From Bradyrhizobium sp. 141 (GTDB lineage Bacteria > Pseudomonadota > Alphaproteobacteria > Rhizobiales > Xanthobacteraceae): a stretch of DNA of 64,000 nt. The DNA lies in assembly GCF_023074055.1 (NCBI RefSeq), contig NZ_JADPKR010000097.1, positions 62,001 to 126,000 of the forward strand, read 5' to 3'. A model generated the notes under the pieces. That model was not told the origin of the DNA. It did not search any database and was given only the letters and a program-made list of their open reading frames with translations. Positions 1 to 62,463 of the stretch are shown here, piece after piece (positions within the stretch are counted from its first letter, which is position 1; the number at the start of each line of letters is the position of its first letter). The translations under genes and the position numbers were made by a program.

Positions 1-639
1 CTGACCGTTGCAGTGCGCACGGGCGGCGAAGGTGCCGGCGGCGTCAGCCTCCTCCTGATCGAAGGTGACACGCCCGGCCTGTCGCGCACCAAGCTGAAGA
101 AGATGGGCTGGTGGGCCTCCGACACCGCGACGCTGCATTTCGACGAATGCCGCGTGCCGGCCGGAAACCTGATCGGCGAGGAGGGGCAGGGCTTCAAGAT
201 CATCATGCAGAACTTCAACAGCGAGCGCATGGGCATGGCGGCAAGCTGCACCGCCTTCGCCCGCGTCTGCCTCGACGAGGCGGTCGCCTATGCCAGGGAG
301 CGCCAGACCTTCGGCAAGCCGCTCGCGCAGCACCAGGTGATCCGCCACAAGATCGTCGACATGGCGCAGAAGGTCGCAGCGTCCCAGTCGATGCTGGAGA
401 TGCTGGCCTGGCGGCTCGAGGAGGGCGAAAGCCCGGTCGCCGAAATCTGCATGATGAAGAACCAGGCGACGCAGACCATGGCCTTCTGCGCCTCCGAGGC
501 AGTGCAGATCTTCGGCGGCGCCGGCTTCATGCGCGGCATCAAGGCCGAGCGCATCTACCGCGAGGTCAAGGTCAACGCCATCGGTGGCGGCACCGAGGAA
601 ATCATGAAGGATCTGGCGTCGCGGCAGATGGGGTTGTAG
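1..639 (+). CDS. Acyl-CoA dehydrogenase, 5'-truncated by window edge
   Basis: The reading frame is open from base 1, so the N-terminal part lies outside the window and 212 codons remain. What is left is the middle beta domain and the C-terminal helical domain of a flavin-dependent acyl-CoA dehydrogenase, which introduces an alpha-beta double bond into an acyl-CoA thioester. Family hallmarks visible are RVPAGNLIGEEGQGF, the helix with ARERQTFGKPL, and the C-terminal FAD/substrate loop IYREVKVNAIGGGTEEIM. A second dehydrogenase and a GST follow on the same strand, so it is probably part of a catabolic operon that starts upstream of the window. Substrate cannot be assigned; the GGGTEE loop occurs in short/branched-chain type enzymes. 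Confidence 0.93.
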   Translation: MTVAVRTGGEGAGGVSLLLIEGDTPGLSRTKLKKMGWWASDTATLHFDECRVPAGNLIGEEGQGFKIIMQNFNSERMGMAASCTAFARVCLDEAVAYARERQTFGKPLAQHQVIRHKIVDMAQKVAASQSMLEMLAWRLEEGESPVAEICMMKNQATQTMAFCASEAVQIFGGAGFMRGIKAERIYREVKVNAIGGGTEEIMKDLASRQMGL

Positions 640-53179: not shown

Positions 53180-53791
53180 TCAGGCGGCGAAACGCTCGAC
53201 GCCACAGCCCTTAAGCAATTCGGCCAGCTGCTTGCGGGCATAGAACATTCGCGTCTTCACGGTGCTCTGGGGGATGCCGATGATCTGGCCGACCTCCTCC
53301 ACCGACTTCTCGTGATAGTAGACGAGGTTGATGATCTCGCGATGCGCGGGCGACAGCTTCTGCACGCAGGCGCGCAGGATGGCGCTGGTGTCGCTGCGGT
53401 CGAGCGAGGTCTCGGGCGTCTCGGCATCGTCGGGAATCTGGCGCACGTCTTCCTGGTCGATGTCCTCGAAGCGTCGCTGGCGCATCGCGGTCAGGGCCTT
53501 GAAGCGGGCGATCGAGAGCAGCCAGGTCGAAACCTGCGAGCGGCCCTGGAACTGGCCGGCGGTCCGCCACACGTCCAAAAACACCTGGCTGACGAGGTCT
53601 TCCGCCGTGGTGGCGTCGCGCACGATGCGCAGGATGAAGCGGTACACCCGCACACTATGCCGGCAATAAAGGATATGCATCGACGTCCGGTTGCCGCCGG
53701 CAATGCTCTCGAGAAGCATGTCGTCCGAAGTCGCCTGAGCGGCGATGATGCTCTGGCTGGCCTGGGCGTTGATGGCGATGACGTTCCGCAT
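53180..53791 (-). CDS. ECF-type RNA polymerase sigma factor
   Basis: 203 residues from ATG 53791, with GGAG 8 nt upstream. Region 2 (-10 recognition and core binding) is at about residues 42-108: VYRFILRIVRDATTAEDLVSQVFLDVWR with STWLLSIARFKALTAMR. Region 4 (-35 recognition) is at about 140-195: AHREIINLVYYHEKSVEEVGQIIGIPQSTVKTRMFYARKQL-type HTH with IGIPQSTVKTRMFYAR. No anti-sigma gene is adjacent on either side, which is unusual for ECF factors. Upstream DNA carries repeated GAAAC half-sites. Confidence 0.93.
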   Translation of the reverse strand: MRNVIAINAQASQSIIAAQATSDDMLLESIAGGNRTSMHILYCRHSVRVYRFILRIVRDATTAEDLVSQVFLDVWRTAGQFQGRSQVSTWLLSIARFKALTAMRQRRFEDIDQEDVRQIPDDAETPETSLDRSDTSAILRACVQKLSPAHREIINLVYYHEKSVEEVGQIIGIPQSTVKTRMFYARKQLAELLKGCGVERFAA

Positions 53792-54085: not shown

Positions 54086-54175
54086 GTAGGGTGGGCAAAG
54101 GCGCGAAGCGCCGTGCCCACGATCTTTCGCAAATATGGAGAGATTGGTGGGCACGCTTCGCTTTGCCCACCCTAC
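54086..54175. repeat. Intergenic palindromic repeat, family A copy 4
   Basis: Arms GTAGGGTGGGCAAAGGCGC and GCTTTGCCCACCCTAC, inner GTGCCCAC and GTGGGCAC. Positioned 22 bp downstream of the response regulator stop. Confidence 0.85.
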
Positions 54176-54197: not shown

Positions 54198-54935
54198 CTA
54201 CGCCTTCTCGCCCGCCGGCGAGAATAGATAGCCGCCGCCGCGGATGGTGCGGATCACGGCCGGCTTGGCCGGATCGGGCTCGATCTTGCGGCGGATGCGC
54301 ATGATGCGCAAATCGACGGCGCGGTCGAAGGCTTCGGCGTCGCGTGCATTGGCCAATTCCAACAGGCGCTCGCGCGACAGCACGCGCTTCGGATTGGCCG
54401 CGAACACCTTCAGCAACCCGAACTCGGATGCGGTCAGCGGATGCTCGTTGCCCTCATCGTCGCGCAAGGCCTGGGCTTCGAGATCGAGCCATTTGGTGCC
54501 GAAGCGCACCAGCTGGTCCTTGTCGGATCTCGCCGCCGCCTTATCAGGCACTGCTGCCTTGGCTGGCGCGCTTCGTCGCAGCACCGAGCGGATGCGCGCC
54601 ATCAGCTCGCGCAGCTCGCAGGGTTTTGCCACGTAATCGTCGGCGCCGAGCTCGAGCCCCACGACGCGATCGATCGGGCTCGCGGTCGCCGTCAGCATGA
54701 TGACGGGCACGTTGATGCGGCTCTTGAGGTCGCGGATGATCGAGAGGCCGTCCTCCTCGGGCATGTTGAGGTCGAGCACGACGAGGTCGGGCATGCTGCC
54801 GTCGATCGCGGCGCGCAACGACTTGCCGCCGTCGCACAGCGTCACGGTGAAGCCGTGCATCTTGAGATAATCGCCGACCATCTCCCGGGCCGGGGCTTCA
54901 TCGTCGACGATCATGATGTGCTGGCTTTGGGTCAT
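54198..54935 (-). CDS. OmpR-family response regulator
   Basis: 245 residues. The receiver domain (1-120) has the acidic pair IVDDE, phosphorylatable Asp55 in LVVLDLNMPEEDG, switch residue in IMLTATA and Lys in DDYVAKP. The winged-helix domain (about 145-240) has ASEFGLLKVFAANPKRVLSRERLLELAN and VDLRIMRIRRKIE, ending IRTIRGGGYLF. It is the output of the kinase/binding-protein genes directly upstream (10-bp gap), and probably activates transcription of genes outside this cluster. Confidence 0.94.
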   Translation of the reverse strand: MTQSQHIMIVDDEAPAREMVGDYLKMHGFTVTLCDGGKSLRAAIDGSMPDLVVLDLNMPEEDGLSIIRDLKSRINVPVIMLTATASPIDRVVGLELGADDYVAKPCELRELMARIRSVLRRSAPAKAAVPDKAAARSDKDQLVRFGTKWLDLEAQALRDDEGNEHPLTASEFGLLKVFAANPKRVLSRERLLELANARDAEAFDRAVDLRIMRIRRKIEPDPAKPAVIRTIRGGGYLFSPAGEKA

Positions 54936-54945
54936 GGTCTCTGGA

Positions 54946-56691
54946 TCACGGCAATTCGGTCGCGGGGAGGGTGATGGTGAAGGTCGAGCCCTTGCCGGGC
55001 CCGTCGCTGTCGGCGGTCACCTCGCCGCCATGCATGTCCACGATACGCTTGACGATGGACAAGCCAAGTCCCGTCGAGCTCTCGCCGGCGGTCGGTTTTG
55101 CCGACAGCCGCTGGAACCGGCCGAACAGACGGCCGAGATCTTCCGGGGACAGGCCGGCGCCCTCATCGCTGACGCGGACGACGGTGTCGCCGCCCTCGTG
55201 GCTGACGGCGACGTCGATCTTGCCGCCGATCGGCGAGTATTTGATGGCGTTGCTGATGAGATTGTCGATCGCCTCGCGGATGCGGTCGGTGTCGCACATG
55301 GTGACGATGTTGGCCGGCGCGGCGACGCTGATCGCCTGCTGCTTGTTGACGGCGAGCGGCTGGTTGGCCTCGGCGACCTCCTTGACCAGGGCCGCGACGT
55401 CGACCGGCTCGCGGCGGATGGTGATGTCGAAGGCATCGGCCATCGCGTCCGAGATCAAATGGTCGACCATCGTGGTCAGCCGCTTGGTGGCGTCGCGGAT
55501 GTGGTCGACCTGGGCGACCACGCCGCTTTCCGATGCGCCGGTCGAGATCAGCTCCTTCAGCATCTCGGTGCGGCCGAGGATCACCCCGAGCGGGTTCTTC
55601 AGATCGTGCGCCACGGTGCCCAAAATCTCGTTCTTGAAGCCGTTGGCGCGCTGCAGCCGCAGCCATTGCGCCGAGAGGCGGCGGTTGGCCTGCATCAGGG
55701 CGCGGGTGCGCTGGGCGACGCGGTCCTCCAGCTGCGTGTTGGCGTCCTGGAGCTGCTGGTAGAGGATGACGTTGTCGAAGGCGATCGAGAGCCGGGAGGA
55801 GAAGATCTCGACCAGCGAGCGGTCGGTCTCGGACAGCTCTCGCTCGGCCTGCAGCAGCACCACCACCTCGCGGCCGCTTCCGGTGCGCAAATAGATCACG
55901 CTGCGATGGTCGGCGAATTCGTTCTTGCGGCGCTGGAACGCGGCCTCCACCATCGAGCGCAGATCGGGATCGAGCGCCTTCGACGTGGTGGTGCCGATGA
56001 AGCGGCTGTAGCAGCCGCTGCCGGCGAGCACCGAGAGCTCGGGGTCGATGCCGCCATTGTCGCGCAAGACCAGTATACCGGCGCAGTCGACGTTGAGCAG
56101 CGAGGCGAGCTGGGTCAGCACGCCCTCGGCGAGCCGCTGCATCGACTTGAAGTCGTACAGCGTCGAGGCCGCGTCGATGATGATCTCGAGCCCGCGCCGC
56201 GTCTGCACCATGCGCTCGAGCTGCTGATAGGAGCGCAGCGCCGCGGTCAGCGAGGTGAACAGCTTATCGGCGGTGAGCTCGGTCTTGGCCTTGTAGTCGT
56301 TGATGTCGTACTGCACGATCACGCGCCGCTCCGGCGCCTGGCCTGGCTGTCCGGTGCGCAGGATGATGCGCACGGTCTCGTTCCTGATCTCGTTGCGGAT
56401 GAACTCGACCAGATCGAGGCCGGCGACGTCGGTCTCCATGATGACGTCGAGCAGCACGGCGGCGATGTCGCCGTGCTCGGCCATCAGCTTGCGGCCTTCC
56501 GCCGCGGAATAGGCCGAGAGGATTTCGAGGCCTTGGCCGTTGAGGCTGTAGTCGGACAGCGCGAAACGGGTGCCGTCATGCACGGCCGGATCGTCGTCGA
56601 TGACGGCAATCTTCCATTTCCGGGCGTTGCTATCCTCCGACGCGGTACCGGTATCGTCGATCAGGTGGAGGACATCGTCCTGTTCGGCCAT
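54946..56691 (-). CDS. Receiver-histidine kinase with DUF3369 domain
   Basis: 581 residues and no transmembrane segment. Order: receiver domain (about 25-150, acidic IDDD, Asp82 in LLDVIMET), DUF3369 GAF-like domain (about 155-310), coiled-coil linker, HisKA with His362 in TVAHDLKNPLG, and HATPase_c (N box DNLISNAIKYSP, G boxes VSDEGAGLSPEDLG and GLGLSIVKRI). As a soluble kinase with its own receiver it can accept a phosphate from another kinase and relay to the OmpR regulator. It overlaps the membrane kinase gene by 31 bp, so the proteins are tightly co-expressed. Confidence 0.92.
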   Translation of the reverse strand: MAEQDDVLHLIDDTGTASEDSNARKWKIAVIDDDPAVHDGTRFALSDYSLNGQGLEILSAYSAAEGRKLMAEHGDIAAVLLDVIMETDVAGLDLVEFIRNEIRNETVRIILRTGQPGQAPERRVIVQYDINDYKAKTELTADKLFTSLTAALRSYQQLERMVQTRRGLEIIIDAASTLYDFKSMQRLAEGVLTQLASLLNVDCAGILVLRDNGGIDPELSVLAGSGCYSRFIGTTTSKALDPDLRSMVEAAFQRRKNEFADHRSVIYLRTGSGREVVVLLQAERELSETDRSLVEIFSSRLSIAFDNVILYQQLQDANTQLEDRVAQRTRALMQANRRLSAQWLRLQRANGFKNEILGTVAHDLKNPLGVILGRTEMLKELISTGASESGVVAQVDHIRDATKRLTTMVDHLISDAMADAFDITIRREPVDVAALVKEVAEANQPLAVNKQQAISVAAPANIVTMCDTDRIREAIDNLISNAIKYSPIGGKIDVAVSHEGGDTVVRVSDEGAGLSPEDLGRLFGRFQRLSAKPTAGESSTGLGLSIVKRIVDMHGGEVTADSDGPGKGSTFTITLPATELP

Positions 56692-58739
56692 TGAGAAGTC
56701 CCGTCACTTTCTGTGCTTTGCGCGCCGCCCTTGGCGACCCGGGGCATGATAATGCGAAAAGTGGTGCCTTGTCCCAGCTTGGATTCCAGCATCATGCGCC
56801 CGCCGAGCTGCTGGGTGACGAGGTTATAGACGATATGCAGGCCAAGTCCCGTGCCGCCTTCATTGCGCCGGGTGGTAAAGAAAGGGTCAAAGGCCTGGCG
56901 CTGCACGTCCGGGGTCATGCCGGCCCCGTCATCGGTGAAGATGAGCTCGATGTCGTCGGCCCCGCGCGGCCGCGCCGAGATCGTGATCGTGCCGGCGCGC
57001 CCGTCGGCGAAGGCGTGGTTGGCGGCGTTGAGGAAGAGGTTGGTCAGGATCTGGCCATAGGAGCCGGGATAGCCGTCGAGCAGCAGCCCCTCGGGCACGT
57101 CGACCTGGAGCGTGGTCGGCGAGCGCTTCAGCACCGGCCTGAGGCTTGCAATGATCTGGTCGGTGGCCTCGCTGAGCGAGAATTGCCGCCGCTCGGCATG
57201 GGAGCGGTCGACCGCGACCTGCTTGAACGACTGGATCAGCTCGCCGGCGCGCTGGAGATTGGCGACCAGCTGCTGCGAGGCGTCGCGCGAGGACTGCACG
57301 AACTCTTCCAGCTGCGAGCGGCGCAGGCCTCCCTCGCCCTTGAGCTGGGCTTCGAAGATTTCGGTGCGCCGGGCGAAGCTGGAGGCGACGGTCAGGCTGA
57401 TGCCGATCGGGTTGTTGACTTCGTGGGCGACGCCGGCAACGAGGCCGCCGAGCGCCGCCAGCCGTTCGGCGTCGATCAGATTCTGCTGCGCGGTGTTGAG
57501 CTCGAGAAGCGCGCTCTCGGCCTTCTCCTTGGACGCGCGCAGCTCGTCCTCGGTCTCGCGCTTGGCGATCGCGTTCTCGCGGAACACCTCCACCGCACGC
57601 GCCATCGCTCCGACCTCGTCACGTGCCTTGGTGCCCTGCACCTCGCGGTCGAGGTCGCCGAGCGTGATCGCGCGCATCGCGGCCATGATCTGCTGCAGCG
57701 GCAGCCGGATCGACAGCGCGATCATCACGCCCGCGGTGAGGATGATGCCGAGGAAGACCACCGCGATCGACAGCACCCGCCTGGAAATGGCGGCCAGCGT
57801 GCGGTCGAACGTCTCCTGCGCCTTCTGCTCGCGCTTGCGCATCTTGGTGGAGAGATCGTCGATGGCGCCGATCGCCTCGGCCTGGCTGGCGTCGATGGTG
57901 TTGCGGAGCAGCTCGGTGCGGCTTGCAAGCTGTTCGGAGAGCTTTGCAAAGCCCTCGCGCAGCGCGGTGGTGCGGGCCCCGAGCCGCCGCAGCGCCATGC
58001 GCTGCAGGTCGTTGTCGGCGAGATCGATCATCACGGGGATGGTCTTCTCGATCGTCTCGGTGTTGCGGCGCGCGTCGTCGGCCGCGCCCGATGACAGCGA
58101 CAGATAATAGGAATTGGCCGCCACCAGCATCGCGGTGAAGGCCTCGCGGGATTTTCCCAGCGAGGGCCAGATCAGCGCGTCGCGATGGCCGGTGGCGCCT
58201 TCGATGATGGAATAGAGGCCCGCCATGTCCCTGGCCGGGCCCTGCACCTGCTCCTCATAGGTTTTCGCGATGGTGGCCTGCACGCTGCGCAGCTCGCCGA
58301 AACCATTGAGGAAGCGGTCGGTGGTGCGCTCCAGCTCCTCGACCGAGCCCGACAGCATCGGGTCCTTGGCCGCGCGGTTGGACAGCGTGCCCAGCACCGC
58401 CTCGCGCAGCAGCAGGATCTCGGCGAACAGGTCCGGGCTCGGCTGGTTGATGTAGCGGTGGATCAGATTATGCAGGCGCCCGGTCTCGCTTTCGAGCAGC
58501 GCCAGGATGCGGTCGGACTCGCGCACCTGGCGCACGTCGTCCCAGGCCGAGCCCAGCACCTGCGCGCCGTTCCAGATCATCGCCACCAGCACCACCACCA
58601 CGGCGGAATTCAGCGCCGCGATCGACAGGATGCGCCAGCGGATCGGCACCGCGCGCAGCATGCCGACCAGCCGCGCGCGCAGCCGTCCGATCGGGCCGGA
58701 CGGCCTGTCCGCGTGCTCGTGATGTCCAAGTGCAGCCAA
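56661..58739 (-). CDS. Membrane sensor histidine kinase with periplasmic helical domain and HAMP
   Basis: 692 residues. TM1 at about 38-62, a large periplasmic domain of about 255 residues rich in helices and coiled coil (four-helix bundle type, as in TorS), TM2 at about 320-345, HAMP at about 345-400, a coiled-coil region, HisKA with His439 in GGLVAGVAHEVNNPIG, and HATPase_c with LTNLFLNAANHAF, FTDDGAGMTPDVQRQAFDPFFTT and GTGLGLHIVYNLV. The C-terminus overlaps the next kinase gene. The TRAP-type binding protein gene lies 6 bp upstream, so a binding-protein-controlled sensor like TorT-TorS is likely. Confidence 0.92.
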   Translation of the reverse strand: MAALGHHEHADRPSGPIGRLRARLVGMLRAVPIRWRILSIAALNSAVVVVLVAMIWNGAQVLGSAWDDVRQVRESDRILALLESETGRLHNLIHRYINQPSPDLFAEILLLREAVLGTLSNRAAKDPMLSGSVEELERTTDRFLNGFGELRSVQATIAKTYEEQVQGPARDMAGLYSIIEGATGHRDALIWPSLGKSREAFTAMLVAANSYYLSLSSGAADDARRNTETIEKTIPVMIDLADNDLQRMALRRLGARTTALREGFAKLSEQLASRTELLRNTIDASQAEAIGAIDDLSTKMRKREQKAQETFDRTLAAISRRVLSIAVVFLGIILTAGVMIALSIRLPLQQIMAAMRAITLGDLDREVQGTKARDEVGAMARAVEVFRENAIAKRETEDELRASKEKAESALLELNTAQQNLIDAERLAALGGLVAGVAHEVNNPIGISLTVASSFARRTEIFEAQLKGEGGLRRSQLEEFVQSSRDASQQLVANLQRAGELIQSFKQVAVDRSHAERRQFSLSEATDQIIASLRPVLKRSPTTLQVDVPEGLLLDGYPGSYGQILTNLFLNAANHAFADGRAGTITISARPRGADDIELIFTDDGAGMTPDVQRQAFDPFFTTRRNEGGTGLGLHIVYNLVTQQLGGRMMLESKLGQGTTFRIIMPRVAKGGAQSTESDGTSQWPNRTMSST

Positions 58740-58745
58740 TGCGGC

Positions 58746-59756
58746 TCACTCCACCTTGCGAATGCGTTCGATCAGCGTGGCCGCGGCGGGATCGCGCCCG
58801 GCCTTGGCGTAGATAGCGGCCATGGCGTCCTCGAACGGCTTGCGGTCGATATCCCTGACGATGGTAACGCCTGCTTCCTGCGCCTTGCGCTGCGACTGTT
58901 CCTCCAGGTCACGCCATTTCTCGCGCATGAACCGGCTGGAGCGCTGGGCGGCCTCCCGGAAGATGGTCTGGTCATCCGGCGACAGGCTCTGCCAGGCCTT
59001 CTGCGAGATCACCAGCACTTCGGGACTCATCGTGTGCTCGGTGAGCGCAAGGTAGCCGGCATGCTTGTAATGGTCTGTCGTCACGAAAGATGGCCAGTTG
59101 TTTTCGGCGCCGTCGATCAGATGGTTGGTGAGCCCGGTGAGCACCTGCCCGTAAGGAAGCTCGACCGGCTCGGCGCCGAGCGAACGGATCATCTGGCTCA
59201 TCAACTCCGACTGCTGCACCCGGATCCGCAATCCCCTAAGGTCCGCGATATTCCTCACCGGCCGGACACCGTTGTAGATCGACCGCGCGCCGGAATCGTA
59301 AAAAGCCAGCCCGACGAAGCCGTAGGGCTCGAAACTGCCGAGGATCTCGCTGCCGATCGGGCCATCCAGCACCTTCTGCATGTGCTCGATGGACCGGAAC
59401 AGGAACGGCATGGCGAGCACGTTCATCGCCGGAACGAAATTGCCGATCAGCGCTACGTTGGTCCGGTTGAGGTCGATCGCGCCGGCCCGGGTCTGCTCGA
59501 TGGTCTCCTTTTCCTCGCCGAGCTGACGGGAGTGGAACACCTTGATCTCATGGCGGCCGCCGCTGCGCTCGGCAATCAGGGCGCCCATGTAGCGCAGCGC
59601 CTGGACCGTCGGATAATCCTCGGTCTGGGTGTCGGCGGCGCGAAACTCGCGCGCAACGGCACCCGTCGCGCGCATGCCTATCGAGGCTGCGGCGAGCAGA
59701 AGCGCGACGAAGATCACCCCGGTCCGCGAGAGTTCGGCACGGCTCAGCACTGGCAC
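58746..59756 (-). CDS. TRAP-type (DctP) solute-binding protein, likely sensory
   Basis: 336 residues from GTG 59756, with AAGGGG 6 nt upstream. A hydrophobic signal (GVIFVALLLAAASIGM) is followed by the DctP family body: QALRYMGALIAERSGGRHEIKVFHSRQLGEEKETIEQT, NVALIGNFVPAMNVLAMPFLFRS, the signature ADLRGLRIRVQQSEL (arginine binding a carboxylate) and GAENNWPSFVTTDHYKHAGYL. Ligands are normally organic acids. No TRAP permease (DctQ/DctM) genes are present nearby; two kinases and a regulator follow directly in the same operon, so it is most likely a sensor component. Confidence 0.92.
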   Translation of the reverse strand: MPVLSRAELSRTGVIFVALLLAAASIGMRATGAVAREFRAADTQTEDYPTVQALRYMGALIAERSGGRHEIKVFHSRQLGEEKETIEQTRAGAIDLNRTNVALIGNFVPAMNVLAMPFLFRSIEHMQKVLDGPIGSEILGSFEPYGFVGLAFYDSGARSIYNGVRPVRNIADLRGLRIRVQQSELMSQMIRSLGAEPVELPYGQVLTGLTNHLIDGAENNWPSFVTTDHYKHAGYLALTEHTMSPEVLVISQKAWQSLSPDDQTIFREAAQRSSRFMREKWRDLEEQSQRKAQEAGVTIVRDIDRKPFEDAMAAIYAKAGRDPAAATLIERIRKVE

Positions 59757-59955
59757 ACTCAACCCCTTAGTGGTGGAGTCTATGGCGGAAGGAAAAGGTT
59801 CAATGCAATCTAGCAGATGGTCGGGGGAAGGCCATCCGCCCGGTGCCGTGGTGCGATTGTGCGGCGCGGCCGGCGCGCATTCCCGGTTGAAACCGCAAAT
59901 GCTGCGCCTTAAGCAGGGCAGGCCGCCTTTGTCGCGCGGTACGGGAAGAGCCATC

Positions 59956-61281
59956 GTGACTTCAGCATCGCGCATTTTGCAGGTCGTCGCCGCCCTTGCG
60001 GCTCTCTCACTGGCTGCTCCCGTGCGCGCCGCCACCGACATCGCGTGGTGGCACGCCATGTCCGGCGAGCTCGGGCGGCAGCTCGAGAAGCTGGCCTCGG
60101 ACTTCAACGCCTCGCAATCCGATTACCGCATCGTGCCTGCTTACAAGGGCAATTACACCGAGACGGTGACCGCCGCGATCTTCGCCTTCCGCTCGCGCAG
60201 CCAGCCCGCGATCGTCCAGGTCAACGAGGTCGCCACCGCGACCATGACCGCGGCCAAGGGCGCGATCTATCCGGTGTTCAGCCTGATGCGGGATCAGGGC
60301 GAGCCGTTCTCGCTGGCCGATTACTTGCCCGCCGTCTCCGGCTATTACACCGATGCGGCCGGCAATCTGTTGTCGTTCCCGTTCAATTCCTCGACGCCGA
60401 TCCTGTACTACAACAAGACCATGTTCCGCGACGCGGGCCTCGATCCGGAGACGCCGCCGAAGACCTGGCCGGAACTGGGGCTGGCTGCAAAGCGGCTGCG
60501 CGACCGCGGCGCTCCATGCGGCTTCACCACGTCCTGGCCGTCCTGGATCCATGTCGAGAATTTCTCCGCCTTCCACAATCTGCCGCTGGCGAGCCGGGCC
60601 AACGGCTTTGCCGGGCTGGATGCGGAGCTGACCATCAACAATCCGTCGCTGGTGCATCACATCGCAGCGCTCAGCGAATGGCAGAAGACCAAGCTGTTCG
60701 ACTATAGCGGCCGCGGCCAATCGGCCGAGCCACGGTTCCAGAAGGGCGAATGCGGCATCTTCATCGGCTCCTCGGCCACGCGCGCCGACATCAGAGCGAA
60801 TTCGAAGTTCGATATCGGCTACGGCATGATGCCGTACTGGCCGGACATGAAGGGCGCGCCGCAGAATTCGATCATCGGCGGCGCCACGCTGTGGGTGCTG
60901 CGCGACCGGCCGCGCGAGGAATACAAGGGCGTGGCGCGGTTCTTTTCTTATCTGTCGCAGCCCGGCGTGCAAGCCGCCTGGCATCAGAACACCGGGTACT
61001 TGCCTGTGACCCGTGCCGCCTTCGAGCTGACGCGGTCGCATGGCTTCTACGAGCGCAACCCGGGCTCGGCGATCTCGTTCGAGGAGATCACGCTCAATCC
61101 GCCGACGGAGAATTCGAAGGGCATCCGGCTCGGCTCCTTCGTCCTGATCCGCGGCGCGATCGAGGACGAGCTGGAGCAGGCCTTTGCCGGCCACAAGAGC
61201 GCGCAGGCAGCGCTGGATTCCGCCGTCGAGCGCGGCAACAAGCTGCTCCGCCAGTTCGAGCGCGCAAGTCCCGAGCGGTAG
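59956..61281 (+). CDS. Extracellular solute-binding protein (UgpB-like)
   Basis: 441 residues from GTG 59956 behind GGGAAGAG; the frame is open upstream but antisense to the DctP gene. A Sec signal peptide ends in VRAATDI, and the protein is a family 1 (SBP_bac_1/8) binding protein close to the sn-glycerol-3-phosphate/polyol receptor: IAWWHAMSGELGRQLEKLASDFNASQ, YRIVPAYKGNYTETVTAAIFAFRS, AIVQVNEVATATM. No UgpAEC permease or ATPase genes are adjacent, so it is an orphan receptor. It is divergent from the TRAP-type binding protein, sharing a 199-bp control region. Confidence 0.9.
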   Translation: MTSASRILQVVAALAALSLAAPVRAATDIAWWHAMSGELGRQLEKLASDFNASQSDYRIVPAYKGNYTETVTAAIFAFRSRSQPAIVQVNEVATATMTAAKGAIYPVFSLMRDQGEPFSLADYLPAVSGYYTDAAGNLLSFPFNSSTPILYYNKTMFRDAGLDPETPPKTWPELGLAAKRLRDRGAPCGFTTSWPSWIHVENFSAFHNLPLASRANGFAGLDAELTINNPSLVHHIAALSEWQKTKLFDYSGRGQSAEPRFQKGECGIFIGSSATRADIRANSKFDIGYGMMPYWPDMKGAPQNSIIGGATLWVLRDRPREEYKGVARFFSYLSQPGVQAAWHQNTGYLPVTRAAFELTRSHGFYERNPGSAISFEEITLNPPTENSKGIRLGSFVLIRGAIEDELEQAFAGHKSAQAALDSAVERGNKLLRQFERASPER

Positions 61282-61503: not shown

Positions 61504-62463
61504 ATGAGCATCGCGCCATCGCAACAATTGCCGGTCTTCACCGACGCGAAAAGCTTTCGGGCCTTTCGCTCCGACCCGGCGCAATGGCTGCCGATCGCGC
61601 TCGACATCGCGCGCCGCAACGGTCTCGATACCAGCTCGCCGCATGTGTTTGCGACCGGCACCAATCTCGTCATCGGGCTCAGCGACAAGCTGATCCTGAA
61701 AATCTTCCCGCCGATGCTCGCAGCGCAGTTCGTCTCCGAGCGCGGCTCGCTGGCGCAACTGAAAGGCCATCTCGATCTGCCGATTCCGGAGATCGTTGCC
61801 GAAGGAACGCGCGACGGCTGGCCCTATCTCGTCATCACGCGCCTTGCCGGCACGCTCGGCTCGGAGGTATGGCCGCAACTGCCGGAAGCTCAGAAGGAGC
61901 GCTTGCTGCGCCAGATCGGCGAGACCATCGCCGCCGTGCAGCGCGCGCCGCTCGGAGAGCTGGCGCATATCGAGCCGCGCTGGAACGACTTCATGCGCCA
62001 GCAGATGCGGGGCTGCCGTGCCAGGCACGAGCGTCTTGGCCTTGCACCGAAATTCCTTAGAGGCCTCGACGATCTGCTGCATGACGCAGGAAAACTCATT
62101 CCGATGGATGCGCGGCCGGTGATCCTGATCGGCGAATACATTCCGGAGAACTTTCTGCTCGCCTGCGATGACGGCCAATGGTCGCTCGCCGGCCTGTTCG
62201 ATTTCGGCGACGTGCTGGCGGGATGGCGCGATTACGACCTGCTCGGGCCCAGCGCGTTCATGGCGGCGGGCCGGCCGGGGAGGGTGCGCAGCCTGCTCGA
62301 AGGCTTTGGCTACGCGAAGCCCGATTTCGCCCTCAAGCGCCGCCTGATGGCCCTGATGCTGCTGCACCGCGCCAGCGACCTCAACGCGCACATCTGCATC
62401 GAGGGCTGGCAGGAGAGGGCGAATGATCTGGTCGAGCTGCAGGAGCTGATCTGGGCCGGCTGA
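61504..62463 (+). CDS. APH-fold phosphotransferase family protein with altered catalytic motif
   Basis: 319 residues from ATG 61504 (GTG 61498 also in frame). The aminoglycoside phosphotransferase/choline kinase-like fold is recognised from NLVIGLSDKLILKIFPP, PYLVITRLAGTLGSEVWPQL, and the C-terminal lobe with FLRGLDDLLHD and LFDFGDVLAGWRDYDLLGPSAF (metal-binding Asp233). The Brenner motif H-G-D-x-x-x-x-N is changed to I-G-E-Y-I-P-E-N at residues 209-216, so the usual catalytic Asp is Glu211 and the His is lost. Function and substrate are unknown; drug resistance should not be assumed. Confidence 0.82.
   Translation: MSIAPSQQLPVFTDAKSFRAFRSDPAQWLPIALDIARRNGLDTSSPHVFATGTNLVIGLSDKLILKIFPPMLAAQFVSERGSLAQLKGHLDLPIPEIVAEGTRDGWPYLVITRLAGTLGSEVWPQLPEAQKERLLRQIGETIAAVQRAPLGELAHIEPRWNDFMRQQMRGCRARHERLGLAPKFLRGLDDLLHDAGKLIPMDARPVILIGEYIPENFLLACDDGQWSLAGLFDFGDVLAGWRDYDLLGPSAFMAAGRPGRVRSLLEGFGYAKPDFALKRRLMALMLLHRASDLNAHICIEGWQERANDLVELQELIWAG

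Follow-up and report, generated by a model that had tools for sequence, protein, structure and literature searches.

The stretch of Bradyrhizobium sp. 141 DNA analysed here (positions 62,001 to 126,000 of contig NZ_JADPKR010000097.1; 64,000 nucleotides, hereafter the window) is part of contig C16 in a genome of 8.5 Mb and carries four consecutive reverse-strand genes that read as a sensing module. The first, dctP (58746..59756, −), encodes an orphan binding protein of the tripartite ATP-independent periplasmic (TRAP) type, 336 residues long, which matches Pfam DctP (275.8 bits against a cut-off of 23.4) and NCBIfam TRAP_S1 (243.7 against 50). The gene ends at 58746, 6 bp from the TTG start at 58739 of a membrane histidine kinase gene (56661..58739, −), whose product has a helical two-bundle periplasmic sensor, Pfam HAMP and HATPase_c domains, a HisKA match under its cut-off (13.9 against 26.9) and the phospho-acceptor His439. 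A 31-bp overlap leads into the gene for a soluble kinase (54946..56691, −; receiver Asp82, phospho-acceptor His362) with Response_reg (31.0 bits, cut-off 30.2), DUF3369 (159 bits, cut-off 27.2), HisKA and HATPase_c in that order, and 10 bp further on lies an OmpR-type response regulator (54198..54935, −; Asp55; Pfam and NCBIfam), in which Pfam finds Response_reg and Trans_reg_C. The open reading frame list and Pfam bear out the genes, spacings and domains that the initial annotation had given, and its choice of Asp82 and Asp55 as receiver aspartates is correct. Across 133 aligned loci, nine of ten checked positions (His439, Asp82, His362 and seven more kinase or receiver positions, Asp55 being left out of the count) are invariant; the tenth, position 604 of the membrane kinase, is D in 84 loci and N in 49, and we read it as the position at which the DxGxG motif varies. 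PADLOC gave no match for the membrane kinase and one weak match, to the ATPase region, for the soluble kinase.

As had been proposed, dctP stands without transport partners: no DctQ or DctM gene was recognised beside it in the window, where not every small open reading frame was scanned. The module's neighbours are instead an extracytoplasmic function (ECF) sigma factor gene, a ugpB-like gene, an APH-like gene and an SBP_bac_5 operon in addition to the kinases and regulator themselves. A transport role for DctP with permeases close at hand was rejected, as no permease genes were recognised nearby, and the view of the locus as a sensing module rather than a transporter is supported.

The module is near-universal in the sampled Bradyrhizobium genomes. 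On a recount of the listing, an ortholog of the membrane kinase is present in 144 of 146 same-genus genomes; the two exceptions, G097 (75% complete) and G100 (81% complete), hold distant kinase matches only, and in G045 the kinase is divided between two contigs. Searches at E 1e-200 recover the soluble kinase in 142 of these genomes, and those at E 1e-110 recover dctP in 103, the match in G009 being broken. At order level the membrane kinase occurs in 23 of 297 genomes at E 1e-120, namely nine of its own genus, one of the same family (Tardiphaga robiniae), one f14 genome and 12 Phreatobacter. A profile of the sensor found 2 of 385 genomes at class level, from its own genus only, and 11 of 398 at phylum level, from its own genus and one same-family genus; these two samples are thin, since both missed Phreatobacter, which has the module. 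The named-genome scan covered the best 80 of 461 relatives, of which most are Bradyrhizobium and the others Tardiphaga, Rhodopseudomonas, Rhodoplanes, Phreatobacter and metagenome-assembled genomes (MAGs) of Beijerinckiaceae, Methylobacteriaceae or Hyphomicrobiales. Whole or partial modules were seen in Tardiphaga, Phreatobacter, Rhodoplanes and Beijerinckiaceae MAGs, incomplete members including Tardiphaga without dctP and a Rhodoplanes locus without a regulator match. The gene order is not a chance one, because dctP (>80% coverage) lies directly upstream of the kinase in 34/37, 34/80 and 67/80 kinase-bearing loci of three sets, which overlap in genomes and of which the second was deliberately enriched in dctP-less genomes.

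The predicted structure of DctP (predicted local distance difference test score, pLDDT, 91.5) has 4n8y as its top match (Z 45.2, 1.2 Å over 300 aligned residues, 49% identity), followed by 4ovr, 4mij, 4mhf and 4x8r; entries among these beyond 4n8y and 4x8r hold uronates too. The available parts of PMC11668362 give galacturonate as the ligand in 4N8Y and glucuronate in 4X8R. The hexuronate TRAP binding proteins, 4n8y and its relatives, share the fold of the window DctP and are 41–49% identical to it. Three plasmid relatives, out of 146 records, were examined, and all lie near dctQM and uronate genes, whereas none are recognised near the window gene: one in Nitratireductor (49.7% identity; uxaC, kduI and dctQM), one in Azospirillum thermophilum (46.6%; kduD, kduI and a second DctP followed by dctQM) and one in Agrobacterium larrymoorei (46.4%; kduI, kduD and dctQM). 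DctP thus probably binds a hexuronate, for example galacturonate or glucuronate.

Comparison across the genus shows that dctP is dispensable and has been lost many times, as 43 of the 146 genomes have no match anywhere at E 1e-110. That result led us to reject relocation of the gene elsewhere in these genomes, with the proviso that more divergent copies would be missed at this threshold. A dctP fragment (E 1e-4) persists just upstream of the kinase in 32 of the 43, and the soluble kinase (>80% coverage) still follows the membrane kinase in 40, the remaining three loci being at contig ends or split. On a quick tree of both kinases from 85 loci (LG+G4, long outgroup branches flagged), dctP presence changes 14 times, at least 10 of the changes being forced by starred branches; the 14 include L139, with a partial dctP match, and L137, with a frameshift-like break that sequencing error could explain. 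With a DNA tree built from 133 loci the count is 13. Both kinases stay fully constrained throughout. The ratio of sensor to kinase-core branch length is 1.36 in dctP-less and 1.54 in dctP-bearing lineages (tip-level tests, p = 0.97 and 0.74), and the pairwise ratio of nonsynonymous to synonymous substitution rates (dN/dS) in the sensor is 0.129 without dctP and 0.139 with it (120 non-independent pairs in each group, taken from 349 and 3050). Neither measure shows that the sensor as a whole relaxed once dctP was lost, and we rejected that possibility. The initial annotation had ligand-bound DctP controlling the membrane kinase; probable docking is supported, a role as necessary controller is not.

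A second orphan binding protein, overlooked in that single-binding-protein account, is encoded divergently to dctP. The gene (59899..61281, +; start codon assumed), assigned by NCBIfam UgpB and synteny, encodes an ATP-binding cassette (ABC)-type protein that passes the UgpB equivalog with 551.7 bits (cut-off 411). Neither ugpA, ugpE nor ugpC lies beside it, its neighbours being the APH-like gene and the SBP_bac_5 transporter operon. A complete ugpBAEC set, all four genes over their cut-offs and with a UgpB 50% identical to the orphan, was located on contig C2 (L252), and we therefore rejected the idea that the orphan heads a transporter operon. The orphan keeps both tryptophans that PDB 6x84 lacks relative to 4aq4, which makes glycerol phosphates a likely ligand, probably glycerol-3-phosphate or glycerophosphodiesters. 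Among the best 80 of 461 relatives, orphan UgpB is divergent in 68 loci and downstream on the same strand in two, both in MAGs and after the kinases: L182 reads DctP, kinase, REC-DUF3369 kinase, REC-cyclase, UgpB and a second DctP, and L220 reads kinase, REC kinase, regulator, UgpB and DctP. These same-strand module orders suggest that UgpB is part of the sensor and not just a regulated neighbour, and we take it to be a likely second input. Its presence needs eight state changes on the 85-locus tree, and two genomes (G032 and G132) keep dctP with no UgpB match at E 1e-70. The regulator might instead have UgpB as its main target. The common divergent promoter region would suit such a role, and the canonical ugp set elsewhere frees the orphan copy for special regulation; against it, UgpB in L182 is downstream on the same strand of a module whose regulator has a cyclase in place of the DNA-binding domain. 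We regard this as possible, though on the unlikely side.

How a binding protein might act on the kinase is suggested by the sensor. In a predicted kinase model of 415 residues (pLDDT 82) its best fold match is McpS (2yfa, Z 20.3, 2.7 Å over 226 residues), and a match to TorS (3i9y, Z 17.8, 2.7 Å over 215) supports the TorS-like helical periplasmic domain proposed at the outset. No Pfam family, HBM included, matched the sensor up to E 0.1; the fold matches McpS. We scanned the kinase of 133 loci in windows of 11 residues for parsimony-reconstructed changes on dctP-less and other branches, and two segments stood out. Residues 186–196 (58152..58184, −) changed 25 times on dctP-less branches and 7 times on the others (p = 1.9e-6), and the window 229–239 of the segment at residues 229–240 (58020..58055, −) changed 46 against 25 times (p = 9.6e-7). 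By clade, the counts for both segments are 6/50 vs 8/352 and 67/402 vs 26/416 (combined odds ratio 3.22, p = 9.9e-8). Helix lengths in the model would place both at the tip of the second four-helix bundle, on the side away from the membrane. The simplest reading of the excess change on dctP-less branches is that DctP touches the tip and that constraint is lifted once DctP has gone, and we infer that the two segments are likely its docking surface.

The same sensor could sense a small ligand directly within its helices, as McpS does with malate or succinate, leaving DctP as an accessory only. The best fold match is indeed McpS with one of these ligands bound, the sensor is still constrained without DctP, and the kinase is intact in five genomes that lack both DctP and an intact adjacent UgpB. 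Direct sensing sits poorly with tip changes that are specific to dctP-less branches and with the recurrence of binding-protein genes next to this kinase type, and we consider it unlikely.

The decay of dctP has left a trace of its own. All 21 remnants in the largest loss clade (37–102 codons) can be read without interruption between a dctP-like start and a stop that falls 89–95 nt before the same kinase motif. Across 20 of them (L114 was too short to align), dN/dS is 0.93, a value at which we rejected a conserved function of the remnant proteins; yet there are no stops where 12.3 were expected from 430 substitutions (P = 4.5e-6), and all gaps in the nucleotide alignment are multiples of three. 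Frame-keeping deletions also occur in other lineages (L079, L081, L096, L098, L100, L107 and L120). Frames end differently in L094 and L103, L137 is broken, and no open remnant was recovered for L085, L088, L108, L119 and L138 in a scan that skipped the kinase's own frame; frames of the window clade fall in that frame and were examined apart. Open frames without protein constraint point to translational coupling of dctP to the kinase. The remnants might also be read as short secreted peptides of low constraint, in keeping with a dN/dS of 0.70 in their signal-peptide part.

For the route of phosphate within the module, we turned to relatives in which parts have been swapped. Chelatococcus plasmid pCO-6 (L261) encodes a receiver–histidine kinase (REC-HK), an OmpR-type regulator, a HAMP kinase and an SBP_bac_5 protein, and two Azospirillum plasmids (L249 and L263) encode a HAMP kinase, an SBP_bac_5 protein and a REC-PAS-GGDEF protein. 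The relatives keep the membrane kinase core (43–54% identity) and this receiver (54–71%), and their output varies between REC-GGDEF, REC-HK with OmpR, and REC-HK with REC-cyclase. The common core and receiver suggest a cognate pair, and suggest a role for the DUF3369 kinase as a response regulator with kinase output. By this analogy we favour a serial route from the membrane kinase through the second kinase's receiver to the output, and the passage of phosphate through the soluble kinase's receiver envisaged in the initial annotation would fit the Chelatococcus, Azospirillum and REC-cyclase loci. That both kinases phosphorylate the regulator in parallel, with the soluble kinase's receiver phosphorylated from elsewhere, seems to us quite improbable: there are two kinases for one DNA-binding regulator and the kinase half of the soluble protein scores best against models of PhoR and PnpS, whose partners are OmpR-type regulators, but Azospirillum couples the same membrane kinase type and this receiver to a GGDEF output, and neither a REC-HK nor an OmpR gene is annotated alongside.

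On balance, and at slightly better than even, we read the module as a dedicated extracytoplasmic sensor in which DctP and likely UgpB feed a membrane kinase that signals through the REC-DUF3369 kinase to the OmpR-type regulator. Ligand-bound DctP would dock on the TorS/McpS-like sensor at its membrane-distal tip and modulate the membrane kinase, to which the orphan UgpB-like protein would provide a likely second input. The membrane kinase would then phosphorylate Asp82 of the soluble kinase, and the latter the regulator. DctP would be a modulatory and dispensable input, its frame being translationally coupled to the kinase.

Several observations weigh against this reading. A survey predicts dicarboxylates for DctP proteins (available passages of PMC9602780). 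The kinase is fully constrained after dctP loss, which implies another input or a ligand-free role. Adjacent UgpB does not fill that place everywhere: 4 of the 43 dctP-less genomes (G048, G090, G115 and G137) have none detected beside the kinase, and in a further one (G053) it is truncated. G048 has no UgpB match at E 1e-70 and the other four have only a 50–51% paralog. None of 12 Phreatobacter loci has an adjacent UgpB (of eight genomes searched, seven have a 50–53% match elsewhere and one a 40% match at best), and no UgpB match was found in the f14 genome. The tip segments were picked by scanning these same data, and the permutation treats changes as independent. In the first scan, of 67 loci, the top window 229–239 (45 vs 16 changes) was equalled by 15 of 300 permutations; in the 133-locus scan, where 0 of 500 permutations were as low and the best reverse-scan window had p = 0.006, the 67 loci were re-used and the additions were mostly dctP-bearing. 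On our reading of the stratified test, 4 of 18 dctP-less clades show no tip excess.

If the sensor works in this way, natural and repeated deletion of a binding protein with retention of its kinase may locate the docking surface without recourse to a structure of the complex, and the deletions offer testable mutants. Frame-preserving decay of dctP would be an unusual genomic trace of translational coupling, in a module that is near-universal in the sampled Bradyrhizobium genomes and has a predicted plant-derived ligand. More tentatively, and with considerable doubt, one sensor may read two orphan binding proteins from the TRAP (uronates) and ABC (glycerol phosphates) superfamilies, integrating cues of plant cell-wall and membrane breakdown through two serial kinases, with the gene of a lost binding protein persisting as a frame-only leader that kinase translation requires.

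Other features accompany the module. Upstream of dctP, alignment of 13 intergenic regions identified a conserved promoter-like block, TTGAACCTTTT-N-AGAC (59778..59803, −), with two sites in the whole genome and none in a reversed control; the second exact copy (G000:C1:497523-497548) precedes a gene that reads like a LuxR-type regulator. The ECF-type sigma factor gene (53180-53791, −; PRK12515 subfamily, over its cut-off) lies on the regulator's strand, downstream of it, and translation indicates a similar gene after the module in L242, L254 and L255. We rejected an ECF-sigma link through the promoter-like block, given its two genome sites and the lack of any copy of TGAACCTTTT, exact or with one mismatch, near the window sigma gene. 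An inverted-repeat-like GTGGGCA/TGCCCAC (54090-54175) separates the regulator and sigma genes. In two relatives a class III cyclase-like domain replaces the DNA-binding domain of the module regulator (L182, 9728-10645; L173, 9609-10505), with weak Pfam scores of 25.7 and 22.1, just over the cut-off of 21.9. In L261 (1-14504), urtABCDE and formamidase genes adjoin the module and a cyclase gene. A DctP match (model positions 6-185) lies within a 1922-residue open frame at G000:C83:7511-8047 (L015).

Among characterised systems, TorR is likewise an OmpR-type regulator; TorS is a single polypeptide comprising kinase, receiver and Hpt, and TorT belongs to another binding-protein family. Unlike in TorS, the window receiver sits on a second kinase and the binding protein is DctP; the membrane kinase has no receiver by Pfam and scores 90 bits against the TMAO_torS equivalog (cut-off 676.5). 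A periplasmic binding protein that acts, or in the window probably acts, on a kinase with a helical two-bundle sensor fold is common to both systems, as the available parts of PMC6321045 describe for TorT-TorS. The same parts describe PstS-CtpL of Pseudomonas, in which the sensor acted on by a binding protein is helical and bimodular and belongs to a chemoreceptor rather than a kinase. In BctC-BctE-BctD of Bordetella, a secondary-transporter binding protein loads the sensor kinase (PMC5812351 and PMC9602780, in part); this protein is of the TctC family, also transports with BctBA beside it and has one kinase. Control of kinases by binding proteins has rarely been demonstrated, with about 10 characterised cases according to the available passages of PMC9602780. 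The supposition that no described system matches holds in that no description of this gene order was recognised in the open-licence literature (listings and some passages), and falls short in that related SBP_bac_5 modules exist in Chelatococcus and Azospirillum. Those have a HAMP kinase core 43–44% identical, a related receiver (54–71%) and an adjacent binding-protein gene, but differ in their SBP_bac_5 protein and in having either a REC-HK without a DUF3369 match plus an OmpR-type regulator, or REC-PAS-GGDEF. We conclude that the module is probably binding-protein-assisted two-component sensing in a form without a recognised prior description.

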